Shown here piece after piece: positions 1 through 4,243 of a DNA stretch of 64,000 bases. The notes under the pieces are model-generated. The model was given only the letters and a program-made list of their open reading frames with translations. It was not told the DNA's origin and searched no databases. The translations under genes and the position numbers were made by a program. Source of the stretch: Oscillospiraceae bacterium (lineage in GTDB: Bacteria > Bacillota > Clostridia > Oscillospirales > UBA929). Every line of letters begins with the position of its first letter. The first letter of the stretch is position 1. Location of the stretch: contig WRIZ01000006.1 of assembly GCA_009782475.1 (NCBI GenBank), forward strand, positions 1 through 64,000, written 5' to 3'.

Positions 1-65
1 CCTCGTGCTCTGTAGTTTGACTGCTCTCGCAATCAAGTTTAGCACAACCTTAAAAACAACGCGAC

Positions 66-98
66 GGCACCCACGTTTCATCCCTCGTTGGTGCCTTT
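66..98 (+). terminator. Hairpin terminator at left edge
   Basis: A 10-bp stem with one mismatch (66-75 pairing with 86-95, GGCACC against GGTGCC at its base) is followed by TTT. It probably ends a gene lying left of the window. The short T run makes it a modest terminator. Confidence 0.5.
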
Positions 99-120
99 CG
101 CATGAAAGGAATGGTCATAC

Positions 121-417
121 ATGAGTAAAAAATACGAGAACTCCACCCGCGACGCTTTTCTTGCACACATTCAGAGCGTCGAAAACTACGAAAGCGACAA
201 AGACATGATCCTGAAAGCCTACCGGCTAGAGCGGCACGAAAGCACCCGCCGCCCTGTGAACCCGCTGGCCGTGGCCGGAGTGTCCGGCGTCGCCGCCGTG
301 CTGTGTACCGCCCTTGTCCTGGGCTATAACAGCGGCCACTTCATACCGGCATTGATCGGCGCGGGCGTTGTCGCCTTTGTGGGCTGTGTATTCGCGGCTA
401 TGGCGTGTTGTAAGTAG
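121..417 (+). CDS. Small two-helix membrane protein, unknown function
   Basis: 98 residues. The first 45 or so are charged and hydrophilic. Two hydrophobic segments follow (about residues 49-67 and 73-95), the second ending in a Cys-Cys-Lys terminus. A ribosome site AAAGGA lies about 10 bases before the ATG. The next small membrane gene starts three bases after the stop, so the two are probably co-transcribed up to the terminator at 737-774. I do not recognise the family. Its position just inside an apparent attachment site suggests cargo at the end of an integrated element, which is inference. Confidence 0.6.
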   Translation: MSKKYENSTRDAFLAHIQSVENYESDKDMILKAYRLERHESTRRPVNPLAVAGVSGVAAVLCTALVLGYNSGHFIPALIGAGVVAFVGCVFAAMACCK

Positions 418-419
418 CC

Positions 420-731
420 ATGAGCGAGTTTGATAAACAATGCGCCTTGATCTATGAGGCGACGCGCCGTGAAAAAATCCGCTGTATCTGTATTATGGCC
501 TGTGTCGTGATCGTGCTGGCCTCCGCGCTGGGTGCTATGTTCTACTGCATACCTCCGCCAATGATGGGCGGGACGTGTGAGCCTGTGACATACTCCCGCA
601 CGGACGCGGCGGGGACTACGACAACCACCATAACCAACGGCGGGCGCACCTTGATGATCGTGACTACCGCCGAAGGCAAGGTTATATCTACCAGCATCAC
701 GAGCGGGAGACGGCAAAGCAGGAATAAATGA
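420..731 (+). CDS. Small single-pass membrane protein, unknown function
   Basis: 103 residues: a short basic N-terminal part, one hydrophobic segment at about residues 22-43, then a Thr- and Gly-rich outer part with a TTTT tract and a basic C-terminus. It follows the preceding small membrane gene by two bases and is followed directly by a strong terminator. The topology suggests a short cytoplasmic head and an external tail. No family is recognised. Both genes probably belong to the mobile element that ends at the tRNA fragment near 910-954. Confidence 0.55.
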   Translation: MSEFDKQCALIYEATRREKIRCICIMACVVIVLASALGAMFYCIPPPMMGGTCEPVTYSRTDAAGTTTTTITNGGRTLMIVTTAEGKVISTSITSGRRQSRNK

Positions 732-736
732 GCAGG

Positions 737-774
737 GAACGAGCGGGCGGGCATTGTCCCGCTCGTTCTATTTT
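737..774 (+). terminator. Rho-independent terminator
   Basis: A perfect 11-bp stem (737-747 with 758-768, GAACGAGCGGG and its complement) with a 10-base loop, followed by TATTTT. It closes the two-gene unit 121-731. Confidence 0.85.
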
Positions 775-814
775 GGTTACTATTTGGTTACTATCGATAC
801 GAAACAGTAACCAA
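772..814. repeat. 11-bp tandem repeat plus inverted copy, possible integrase arm sites
   Basis: TTTGGTTACTA occurs twice in perfect tandem (772-782 and 783-793). A partial inverted copy CAGTAACCAA lies at 805-814. The array sits between the terminator and the tRNA fragment at 910-954. Short repeats of this kind near an attachment core are typical binding sites for tyrosine integrases or excisionases; that role is inferred from position. Between 815 and 909 I see nothing else. Confidence 0.55.
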
Positions 815-909
815 TTTTACGAGCGGATACAAAAAGCCAATCTCCAAAACTGCTTGATTATCAATGCTTACAGCAAACCACAAAACGCTACAAAAGGCGT
901 TATTCATAA

Positions 910-954
910 CTCTGACTCTAGAGGCCGTGGGTTCGAATCCCGCCGGGCGTACCA
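910..954 (+). other. 3' fragment of tRNA-Gln(CTG), candidate attachment site
   Basis: Reading from 910: anticodon loop CTCTGAC with anticodon CTG, the 3' anticodon strand TCTAG, a 5-base variable loop, a T arm (GTGGG, TTCGAAT, CCCGC region), the 7-base acceptor strand CGGGCGT, discriminator A and encoded CCA at 952-954. The five bases before the loop (CATAA) cannot pair with TCTAG, and no D arm or 5' acceptor strand precedes it, so this is not a functional tRNA. A 3' tRNA copy starting at the anticodon loop is the usual footprint of a tyrosine-integrase element. The intact tRNA-Gln would be at the far end of the element, left of the window. Confidence 0.75.
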
Positions 955-962
955 ACTGCTCC

Positions 963-991
963 ATAGGCGAACTCTTAACGGGTTCGCCTAT
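963..991 (+). terminator. Perfect 10-bp hairpin after the tRNA fragment
   Basis: ATAGGCGAAC (963-972) pairs perfectly with GTTCGCCTAT (982-991) across a 9-base loop. It lies 8 bases after the CCA end and is probably the native terminator of the tRNA-Gln gene, although the following T run is weak. The stretch 992-1087 holds nothing else that I can identify. Confidence 0.5.
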
Positions 992-1087
992 CGGTATGTT
1001 TATGGCATTTTTGCTGGCATTGCAGAAGACTTCTATGCGGGCATCGTCACCGCCGTACAGGGGCATTTGTACGCAGCCCGCTCGGCA

Positions 1088-1117
1088 TTGACAAAGCGGA
1101 AAAAGCAATGATATAAT
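1088..1117 (+). promoter_or_regulatory. Sigma-A-type promoter for the HD-GYP/flavodiiron operon
   Basis: TTGACA at 1088-1093, 18-base spacer, TATAAT at 1112-1117. Transcription would begin near 1124, which rules out the upstream in-frame ATG at 1116 and supports the start at 1155. Confidence 0.8.
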
Positions 1118-1154
1118 GCTGGTACTGACTCTTTACGGGAATAGAGGTGCTTTG

Positions 1155-2390
1155 ATGAAAATCGCTATGGACAAACTTTGCATGGTCTTTTCCCGCGCGT
1201 TTGACATGATCGAACATGAGCAGCTGGGCGCGAGCGAAAACCACAGTATGCGGGTCGCCCTTCTGTGTATCGCCATGGGGCGGCGGCTCGGGTATGACGA
1301 CGACACCATATCGGCGATCACCGTATGCGGGATGTTCCATGACAGCGCGTTAACCGAGTATCACCTCTCCCAAACAGAGGGCGAACAGCAGGAGCAGAAT
1401 ATGATCCTTCACTGCGAAAAAGGGCAGGATCATGTGTCTTGGCTTCCGTTTAAGGCGGACATTGAGAAGCTCGTATTGTATCACCATGAGCGGGGCGACG
1501 GGCAAGGCCCGTTCGGCAAAACAGAAAACGAGATACCGCTGGAGGCGGCGCTGATCGCCGCGGCGGACGCGGTTGACGCGACCTATCATTTGCAGCGTGT
1601 TCAGCCCGGCAGGCTGCCGGCTTTGCGTGAAAAGATCGCCTCCCGTGCCGAGACGTACTCCACCCGCGCGGCGATCGATGTTTTGATTGACGTGCTGGAT
1701 GAAGACCTGCTTGAAAAGATGCGTGACGAGAATGTAAAGCAAAACTTAGAGCGTGAGCTGCCTCCTTGGGAAGTGGACATTGCCGACCCCAGAATCATCC
1801 GCGTAAGCGAGTTTATCACGCGGGTCATCGACTACAAGTCGGAGTTCACCCATATGCACACCAGCCAAATCGCCAACCGGGCATGGGTCATGGCCGAGCA
1901 TTACGGTTATGGGCCGGCCGAACGCAACGCGCTCTTTCTCGCGGCGTCTCTGCACGATATTGGGAAAATAGGGACGCCTACGGCAATTTTGGAAAAACCG
2001 GGCAAGCTCGATGATGAAGAGTTTGCGGTTATAAAGGATCATGTGAAGAACACACTGGACTGGCTCGATGAAATGCCTGACTTTAAACAGGTCAAAAACT
2101 GGGCGGCCAACCATCACGAAAAACTGGACGGGCGGGGGTATTCCCGCGGGCTGAACGGGGAAGAGCTGGATTTCAATTCGCGCCTGATGACCTGTATCGA
2201 TATTTATCAGGCCGTTTGCGAGACCCGGCCGTATCACGGAGCCAGGTCGCACGAGGAAACCATGCCCATTCTGTACGATATGGCTTCCAAAGGCTATATA
2301 GACAGTAAGATCGTGGAGGATATTGACGCCGTTATGGCGAAATATTCGCTGAGGGAAGTCCCTTCCCCGAACATTCAAGGAGGAACCTGA
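1155..2390 (+). CDS. Tandem HD / HD-GYP phosphodiesterase-like protein
   Basis: 411 residues without signal peptide or membrane segment. A first HD-type domain fills about residues 25-160 (HD at 62-63, a later HHE motif). The second has HDIGK (H267, D268) and HHE with DGRGY (H320, E322, D325-Y329), the pattern of HD-GYP cyclic-di-GMP phosphodiesterases. There is no receiver or sensory domain, so the first HD half may be regulatory. The start at 1155 is chosen for GAGGTG just upstream and because it lies after the promoter at 1088-1117. The stop overlaps the ATG of the flavodiiron gene by one base, so translation is coupled. Activity on cyclic di-GMP is inferred; related HD proteins cleave other nucleotides. 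Confidence 0.85.
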   Translation: MKIAMDKLCMVFSRAFDMIEHEQLGASENHSMRVALLCIAMGRRLGYDDDTISAITVCGMFHDSALTEYHLSQTEGEQQEQNMILHCEKGQDHVSWLPFKADIEKLVLYHHERGDGQGPFGKTENEIPLEAALIAAADAVDATYHLQRVQPGRLPALREKIASRAETYSTRAAIDVLIDVLDEDLLEKMRDENVKQNLERELPPWEVDIADPRIIRVSEFITRVIDYKSEFTHMHTSQIANRAWVMAEHYGYGPAERNALFLAASLHDIGKIGTPTAILEKPGKLDDEEFAVIKDHVKNTLDWLDEMPDFKQVKNWAANHHEKLDGRGYSRGLNGEELDFNSRLMTCIDIYQAVCETRPYHGARSHEETMPILYDMASKGYIDSKIVEDIDAVMAKYSLREVPSPNIQGGT

Positions 2391-4243
2391 TGTACTGCAT
2401 ACAAAACGTTACGGATGATTGCATTTGGGTGGGCGCGAACGACAGGCGTTTGGCCATGTTTGAAGGTATCTATTCCGTCCCGAAAGGCGTTTCGTATAAC
2501 GCCTACCTCTTGCTGGATGAAAAAACGGTATTGTTTGATACGGTGGACAAAGCCGTCGCGCATCGGTTTATCGAAAACGTCGTCCACGCGCTGGACGGAA
2601 GAAAACTGGATTACCTGATCATACAGCACATGGAACCCGACCATTCCGCCGGGATTTGCGGCCTGCTCGCCCGATACCCGGAGCTGACGGTCGTGTGCAA
2701 CGAGAAAACGCTGGGATTCATCCAACAGTTCTATGCGTTGGAGATCGGTTCGCGGGTGCGGATCGTCGGCGAAGGCGGCACATTGAACACCGGCAAACAC
2801 ACCCTTCACTTTATCATGGCGCCGATGGTTCACTGGCCTGAGGTCATGGTCACCTATGACGCCGCCGATAAAATCCTGTTTTCCGCCGATGCTTTCGGCT
2901 GTTTCGGAGCCCTTAACGGCGCGCTGTTCGCCGACGAAGTCGATTTTACAAGGGACTACATGGATGAAGCGCGGCGGTATTACACCAACATCGCCGGCAA
3001 ATATGGCACACAGGTCGAAACACTGCTCAGTAAAGCAGCCTCCCTTGACATCCAAATGATTTGCCCCCTCCACGGTTTCGTTTGGCGGCGGGACATTCAA
3101 TCCATCCTCTCCAAATACCGTCTTTGGAGCGGCTACGAGCCGGAGGAGAAAGGCGTGATGATCGCCTACGCCTCTGTGTACGGGAACACGGAAAACACAG
3201 CGGAAATCCTGGCGGTCAACCTGCGCGGCAGGGGTATCAAAACAGAAATGTTCGATGTTTCCGTGACCCCCGCGTCGGAAATCGTCGCGGCGGCCTTCAA
3301 GTGGAGCCATTTGGTGTTCGCCTCCACAACCTATAACGCGGGTGTTTTCGTGGCGATGGAAGCCCTCCTCAGCGATCTGACCGCCCACAACATTCAAAAC
3401 CGCACCGCCGCCATCATCGAAAACGGCACTTGGGCACCAACCAGCGGCGGTTTGATCCGTGAAAAGCTGGAACAATGCAGCAACATGACCATTCTCAACC
3501 AAACGGTCAGCATACAATCGTCTTTGAAAAAGGAGCAGCTTGCCGAATTAAACAGTATGGCCGAAGCCATTGCCGCAACGCTGCCCGTTCAAGCGATCAA
3601 AGCGGCGCAGCCCGCCGCCGCCGCCGCGCCGGAAACGGCCGATCCGAACACCATGTTCAAGCTCTCCTACGGGTTATTCGTCCTGACCGCCAAAGACGGC
3701 GATAAGGATAACGGCTGCATCATCAACACAGCCGCTCAGATCACCCAAAACCCGCTCCGCATATCGATCGCCGTGAACAAGGTCAACTATACCCACGACA
3801 TGATCGTGAAAACAGGGGCATTCAACGTCTCCATATTGACCCAAAACGCGCCGTTTGCCGTCTTTGAGCAGTTCGGTTTTTCGAGCGGCAGGGAGGGCGA
3901 TAAGTTCGGCGGGGCAGCCGCCGGCCGGACAGCCAACGGCATACGGTATCTGCCCGAATACACCAACGGCGTCATTTCGGGTAAGGTCGCCGAATCCTTC
4001 GATTACGGCACCCATACCCTTTTTATCGCCGAGGTGGCGCAGGCGTTTGTGCTGTCCAATGAACCGAGCGCGACCTATCAATATTATTTTGACAACATCA
4101 AACCCAAGCCGCAAAAACCAAAAGAGCGGAAAGAAGGGTATGTCTGCAAAATATGCGGGTATGTTTACGAAGGCGGAACACTGCCGGAGGACTATATCTG
4201 CCCGCTTTGCAAGCACGGCGCGGCTGATTTCGAGAAACTGTAA
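2390..4243 (+). CDS. Flavodiiron protein fused to flavin reductase and rubredoxin
   Basis: 617 residues in three parts. Residues 1-250 are the metallo-beta-lactamase-like diiron domain with H80-x-E82-x-D84-H85, further ligand His in APMVHWPE, Asp in FSADAF and His in PLHGFVW. About 255-400 is a flavodoxin domain that binds FMN (SVYGNTENTAE). About 420-560 is a flavin-reductase-like FMN barrel, and 570-617 a rubredoxin with two Cys-x-x-Cys-Gly/Lys knuckles (CKICGY, CPLCKH). Such proteins reduce oxygen to water or NO to N2O in the cytoplasm. Here the electron donor modules are built in. A short Ala-Pro linker (about 402-412) joins the flavodoxin and reductase parts. It is coupled to the HD-GYP gene and followed 22 bases later by superoxide reductase, forming an oxygen-defence operon. 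Confidence 0.93.
   Translation: MYCIQNVTDDCIWVGANDRRLAMFEGIYSVPKGVSYNAYLLLDEKTVLFDTVDKAVAHRFIENVVHALDGRKLDYLIIQHMEPDHSAGICGLLARYPELTVVCNEKTLGFIQQFYALEIGSRVRIVGEGGTLNTGKHTLHFIMAPMVHWPEVMVTYDAADKILFSADAFGCFGALNGALFADEVDFTRDYMDEARRYYTNIAGKYGTQVETLLSKAASLDIQMICPLHGFVWRRDIQSILSKYRLWSGYEPEEKGVMIAYASVYGNTENTAEILAVNLRGRGIKTEMFDVSVTPASEIVAAAFKWSHLVFASTTYNAGVFVAMEALLSDLTAHNIQNRTAAIIENGTWAPTSGGLIREKLEQCSNMTILNQTVSIQSSLKKEQLAELNSMAEAIAATLPVQAIKAAQPAAAAAPETADPNTMFKLSYGLFVLTAKDGDKDNGCIINTAAQITQNPLRISIAVNKVNYTHDMIVKTGAFNVSILTQNAPFAVFEQFGFSSGREGDKFGGAAAGRTANGIRYLPEYTNGVISGKVAESFDYGTHTLFIAEVAQAFVLSNEPSATYQYYFDNIKPKPQKPKERKEGYVCKICGYVYEGGTLPEDYICPLCKHGAADFEKL

Follow-up and report, generated by a model that had tools for sequence, protein, structure and literature searches.

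The described systems closest to the locus reported here are genomic islands of the Islander type, for which the available text of the 2014 Islander paper (PMC4383910) gives the same anatomy, namely an anticodon (A) subsite with a 3' tRNA fragment, and in which tyrosine recombinases alone are stated to be known to target tRNA and tmRNA genes. On the serine recombinase side, the available sections on the DsiB islands at ssrA present these as a proposed serine-recombinase case for tmRNA (PMC3146451), and serine integrases that target rumA have been described in streptococcal ICEs (PMC4701971, as far as its available sections go).

The window (the whole stretch of 64,000 nucleotides that was analysed) forms the beginning of contig C6, which has 94,741 bases and belongs to a draft assembly of 2,096,515 bases in 49 contigs that is 91.85% complete. 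We find that its first kilobase holds one end of a decayed small tRNA-borne integrative element of the Islander type at the anticodon subsite, and that positions 909-954 are very probably the attR junction formed when a small element with a tyrosine integrase split tRNA-Arg(CCG) at the anticodon loop/stem. As in islands of that type, there is a displaced tRNA fragment in the same orientation with the 3' fragment downstream (its 5' side faces the element, which sets the direction of the fragment), the intact cognate tRNA is restored by element sequence and has a 3' half that differs from those of relatives, and a tyrosine-integrase sequence, a 70-aa remnant scoring above the PF00589 cut-off, is present in the element. 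Compared with the type in the available Islander text (PMC4383910), the integrase here is only this remnant and the element only ~3.2 kb, the imported half differs at 11/32 bases, and the two ends are on separate contigs. The features of the window, in order, are:

1..120, no strand: end of a multicopy repeat at the contig break (2-124 occurs at 100% identity on other contig ends)
121..417, + strand: small ORF, 98 aa, candidate membrane protein, from sequence
420..731, + strand: small ORF, 103 aa, candidate membrane protein, from sequence
737..768, + strand: inverted repeat with T-rich tail, 11-nt arms that are 100% complementary
772..814, no strand: a pair of TTTGGTTACTA direct repeats at 772-793, plus one inverted copy at 806-814
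909..924, + strand: putative attachment-site core (attR), 15/16 bases in common with the intact tRNA-Arg(CCG)
925..954, + strand: displaced native 3' part of tRNA-Arg(CCG), comprising variable loop, T arm, acceptor 3' strand and CCA
947..1066, - strand: relic of a large serine recombinase (its last 40 residues) that lies flush with the 3' end of the tRNA
1155..2390, + strand: gene for an HD-domain (HD-GYP-like) protein (PF13487, 3.8e-42)

The orphan tRNA half and its isotype

The original prediction of a tRNA 3' half at 910-954, starting at the anticodon loop and lacking its 5' half, was borne out, as 909-954 is a tRNA 3' half that runs from the anticodon loop through CCA. Across the 64-kb window ARAGORN reported no tRNA. 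Of the genome's own tRNA-Arg, the 3' half scored 19.0 when aligned at 900-960, against a shuffle mean of 6.6, a score that no shuffle out of 500 equalled; the 5' half is absent, its alignment to 760-913 scoring 5.0, below a mean of 6.6 for shuffles. When 57 genomes were searched at the DNA level with window positions 900-2500 as query, matches were returned in 20, the genome's own included, and in three same-genus genomes 909-954 matched tRNA-Arg(CCG), at 91% in G001 (E 3.6e-11), 89% in G004 (E 9.4e-10) and 87% in G002 (E 2.0e-8). When the last 28 bases of the orphan were searched with up to three mismatches, no other place was found in the assembly. The orphan is the 3' half of tRNA-Arg(CCG).

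The isotype first assigned to it, tRNA-Gln(CTG), did not hold: the best matches are to Arg(CCG) and, among the 30 anticodons read in this genome (of 33 tRNA matches, the remaining three being 82-86 nt long), the one Gln is TTG and there is one Arg(CCG). The element boundary that had been proposed together with this isotype does stand as a distal attachment site with entry at the anticodon loop, the tRNA concerned being Arg(CCG). The apparent CTG is due to base 913, a position on the element side of the exchange (CTCCGAC in the intact tRNA, CTCTGAC in the window). That the anticodon position of the orphan reads CTG would also fit a tRNA-Gln(CTG), or some other tRNA, that decayed in place and lost its 5' half with no integration; however, there is no trace of the 5' half, the intact tRNA on contig C21 has the same core, the arm repeats pair the two places, and the best matches are to another isotype. 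In-place decay was already contradicted by these results, and we consider its probability negligible. We also considered tRNA-Arg(TCT) as the source gene, since window 923-1038 matches the DNA that follows tRNA-Arg(TCT) in G007. It was rejected because part of this match comes from the serine-recombinase tail, found behind tRNA-Leu in G002 too, and because Arg(CCG) genes fit the orphan half better.

A hybrid working gene for tRNA-Arg(CCG)

The genome yielded a single tRNA-Arg(CCG) (63.5 bits), which lies on the minus strand near the edge of contig C21, at C21:2491-2567. Aligned from the CCA end, the core that it has in common with the orphan is ACTC-GACTCTAGAGG (window 909-924), within which 914-924 are identical and beyond which the sequences diverge, and we place the exchange in the identical part, GACTCTAGAGG. 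Over the last 32 bases the orphan agrees with the C21 gene at 21 (11/32 differ) and is identical at 31 of 32 to a same-genus tRNA-Arg(CCG), L037. Against nine tRNA-Arg(CCG) genes from relatives, the orphan matches at 26-31 of 32 bases and the C21 3' half at 20-25, the orphan being closer in all nine, although nearly all of these genes were obtained by searching with window sequence, which biases the comparison in favour of the orphan, and the set leaves out Arg(CCG) of the same-genus genomes G003 and G005 and a later tenth from G011. For one of the nine, in G002, gene order provides an anchor that does not depend on this search: the genes upstream of its tRNA-Arg(CCG) are orthologous to those upstream on C21 and in the same order, the adjacent one at 82%. 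A scripted attB join of the C21 5' side with the right side of the window gave an intact tRNA-Arg(CCG), and the C21 5' half folded with the orphan as tRNA-Arg(CCG); the reciprocal attP join, also scripted, gave no tRNA.

From the comparison with relatives and the attB join it follows that the orphan is the displaced native half and that the working gene on C21 is a hybrid carrying the half brought by the element. The original prediction had called for an intact tRNA with exactly 910-954, and none was found, only the core being common to both, because integration swapped the 3' half of the working gene for the diverged version of the element. Integration altered the T arm, the 1-72 pair and the discriminator base of the working tRNA-Arg; the discriminator is A73 in the orphan and in all three same-genus genes read, and G73 in the hybrid. 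One point against this reading is the difference of 11/32 between the attP half, borne by the element, and the native half, which exceeds that of textbook cases.

The sequence of events that we propose begins with a tyrosine integrase that would have bound arm sites at both ends of the element. Strand exchange in GACTCTAGAGG, on the 3' side of the anticodon loop and stem, would then have split the gene, joining the native 5' half to the element-borne 3' half as the working tRNA-Arg(CCG) at C21:2491-2567 and pushing the native 3' half to the far end of the element, where it would have become the orphan in the window.

A probable single small element on two contigs

The 11-bp repeats noted in the original prediction are present at 772-793 with the inverted copy at 806-814, and 772..814 are probable arm-type sites for the integrase at the distal end of the element. 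At up to three mismatches, TGGTTACTNTTTGGTTACTA occurs at exactly two sites in the genome, here and at C21:2399-2418 (the reversed control gave 0), and at both it has the same orientation relative to the tRNA, as expected for opposite ends. The distance from arm repeat to core is 121 bp in the window and 102 bp at C21. At zero mismatches the arm repeat was found in one of 394 genomes of the order, its own, and in none of the 393 others. As a separate observation, a tandem pair of TTTGTCCCTTA lies downstream of the genome's own tRNA-Gln(TTG) (L020, C4:96285-96358), like the arm sites of another element.

Beside the intact tRNA gene, C21 also encodes the integrase remnant (70 aa, L053 2132-2344), which matches PF00589 Phage_integrase with E 2.4e-9 and 37.6 bits (cut-off 27.1) and ends 54 bp from the C21 arm site. 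A tyrosine integrase had been predicted next to the intact tRNA, and it is there, but only as its C-terminal 70 residues: no frame upstream of L053 2132 carries the protein on, which makes it a C-terminal remnant, although the unassembled repeat could hide such a frame, and no complete integrase gene of the element was found in the assembled sequence. With its integrase reduced in this way, the element would be unable to excise by itself; the N-terminal part would have been lost after integration, leaving the element probably fixed. Searches for a fuller copy with the remnant gave only three distant matches in genome contigs and, in plasmids, distant matches of <60% identity, and no second copy of the element was found by arm pattern or integrase remnant. 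In the same-genus genome G004, a complete, unrelated tyrosine integrase lies beside tRNA-Arg(CCG), which indicates that this gene serves as a site for more than one element.

The two small ORFs that had been called membrane genes, spanning 121-731, do exist on the + strand, and they are probably membrane-protein cargo of the element, a character read from their sequence alone. Neither has a Pfam or NCBIfam family above cut-off, and neither had a match in the plasmid collection (by tblastn for 121-417). The inverted repeat at 737..768 is a probable terminator of these cargo genes. The C21 side carries a type III toxin gene of the CptIN type (NCBIfam NF047359, 116.3 bits; cut-off 90), together with a small ORF of ribbon-helix-helix-like character that is under every family cut-off. 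Two GC-rich repeats and a terminator-like hairpin precede the toxin gene (CptIN region, L053 1301-1931) and may represent the antitoxin RNA; a search of this region for type III antitoxins gave no match. Just upstream of the region, and within the element, is a 10-bp tandem repeat of GATACCAACG in 4.8 copies (L053 1188-1235).

In the draft assembly, C21 is a contig apart from C6; both end in a multicopy repeat, and neither a contig nor a read links them. There is no reading to the left of base 1, as the window begins at a contig end within such a repeat. Copies of window positions 2-124 with 100% identity also lie at the ends of C39, C38, C11 and C16 (at least five copies in total), from which we conclude that the break of C6 is a multicopy repeat, one that was probably inserted into the tRNA-borne element, and all five copies of this type part after CATACATGA. 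At the other contig, C21:1-123 is a repeat common to the ends of C1, C27 and C8. Its copies (4/4) lie a few bases downstream of GAGGC, which is similar to a Shine-Dalgarno sequence; those of the C6 type (5/5) break at ATGA with an RBS-like AAAGGA just within the repeat. By their sequence, the two types look like the two ends of one insertion, which appears to enter between a Shine-Dalgarno-like GAGGC and the start codon. A further pair of ends is suggested by C27, which holds pnp, and C16, a gene of which matches the YfmF and YfmH peptidase-like families below cut-off, since in Firmicutes pnp frequently lies next to a gene for an M16 peptidase.

Joining C21 and C6 without the repeat yields an element of 3,161 bp, in which a 50-aa ORF overlaps at its end with the beginning of ORF 121-417. 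We infer that the two contigs carry the two ends of one ~3.2 kb element into which the repeat inserted. It is feasible that they are instead the ends of two related elements at tRNA-Arg(CCG), for instance in a tandem array lacking its middle, as both contigs break in multicopy repeats and the middle is unassembled. We judge this improbable, however, because each side has one arm site only, there is only one orphan half, and the ORFs overlap neatly once the contigs are joined. The interior of the repeat is absent from the assembly; searches for it found nothing in plasmids or viral contigs and, in G005 and G010, partial matches only, and when five loci were scanned against Rfam no family reached its gathering score. 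A point against the integration reading is that no relative was found to combine an empty site with the same genes downstream, G001 and G002 carrying other DNA after the tRNA. Past the right end of the element, the HD-domain gene at 1155..2390 is the first intact chromosomal gene. Its best DNA match (71%) is in G044, from another family of the order, and none as strong was found in the five same-genus genomes searched; horizontal transfer of this gene is possible on such sequence matches.

A serine recombinase relic at the same tRNA end

The relic at 947-1066 resembles the tail of a recombinase ORF in G002 (58% over 40 aa, E 3.2e-10; by BLASTP, the relic gave 22/37 identical residues, E 8e-17), and a hairpin at 963-991 lies inside it. 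An intact relative, G007:C18, has Resolvase (PF00239), Recombinase (PF07508) and zinc-ribbon (PF13408) domains. Tails of this kind follow tRNA-Leu(GAG) in G002, tRNA-Met(CAT), tRNA-Arg(TCT) and an intact tmRNA (142 bits) in G007, and the orphan here, and in all five flush cases (the window orphan and four others) a TAG(G/A)(C/T)GAA block starts nine bases after CCA. Among 29 loci from the serine-recombinase search that were scanned for tRNAs, the window's own left out, three had a tRNA and one a tmRNA; all four were among the five closest homologues, and three were flush. At the G011 recombinase locus the tRNA is several hundred bases away, and the fifth of the closest homologues, G007:C5, has no tRNA or tmRNA. 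In the stretches covered at the G007:C18 and G007:C1 recombinase loci, no tmRNA or tRNA fragment was found on the far side, and a scan of viral contigs with the tail found no relative.

As the relic adjoins the CCA of the orphan, and as such recombinases sit at tRNA and tmRNA ends in relatives, the orphan could have been made by the serine-recombinase element whose tail directly follows it. We regard this as very unlikely, given that the tRNA or tmRNA adjoining the four other flush tails is intact and never a half, and that a break at the anticodon core, arm repeats in a pair and an integrase remnant are marks of a tyrosine integrase and not of a serine recombinase. With the tyrosine integrase as the agent that displaced the native half, the succession of this half and a serine recombinase tail means that a second kind of integrase probably made use of this tRNA gene end as well. 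We lean, by a modest degree, towards a serine recombinase subfamily that integrates at the 3' ends of many tRNA genes and of tmRNA, perhaps via the conserved T arm.

In the available sections on the DsiB islands of Dehalococcoides (PMC3146451), the 3' end of the recombinase gene runs into the end of the tmRNA, as at G007:C18. Unlike in that account, the tails here are also found at tRNA-Leu, tRNA-Met and two tRNA-Arg genes; the likeness is positional, and the window holds 40 residues. The rumA-targeting serine integrases of streptococcal ICEs likewise have the 3' end of the recombinase gene at the attachment site, but their target, in the available text (PMC4701971), is a protein gene, unlike here. 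In the literature on serine recombinases or integrases with tRNA or tmRNA, in the portions available, we found no paper on many tRNA targets, and the word 'tRNA' is absent from the main text, as available, of a 2022 recombinase survey (PMC10083194).

Our main finding is of textbook anatomy and provides a worked case in which the stray half is native and the working arginine tRNA is the hybrid. The association of the serine recombinases with tRNA and tmRNA ends matters more, if it holds. Were the multi-target reading true, the window would record two unrelated integrase families on one tRNA gene, and a serine recombinase that accepts many tRNA genes as targets would, to our knowledge, be new and could aid predictable DNA insertion.
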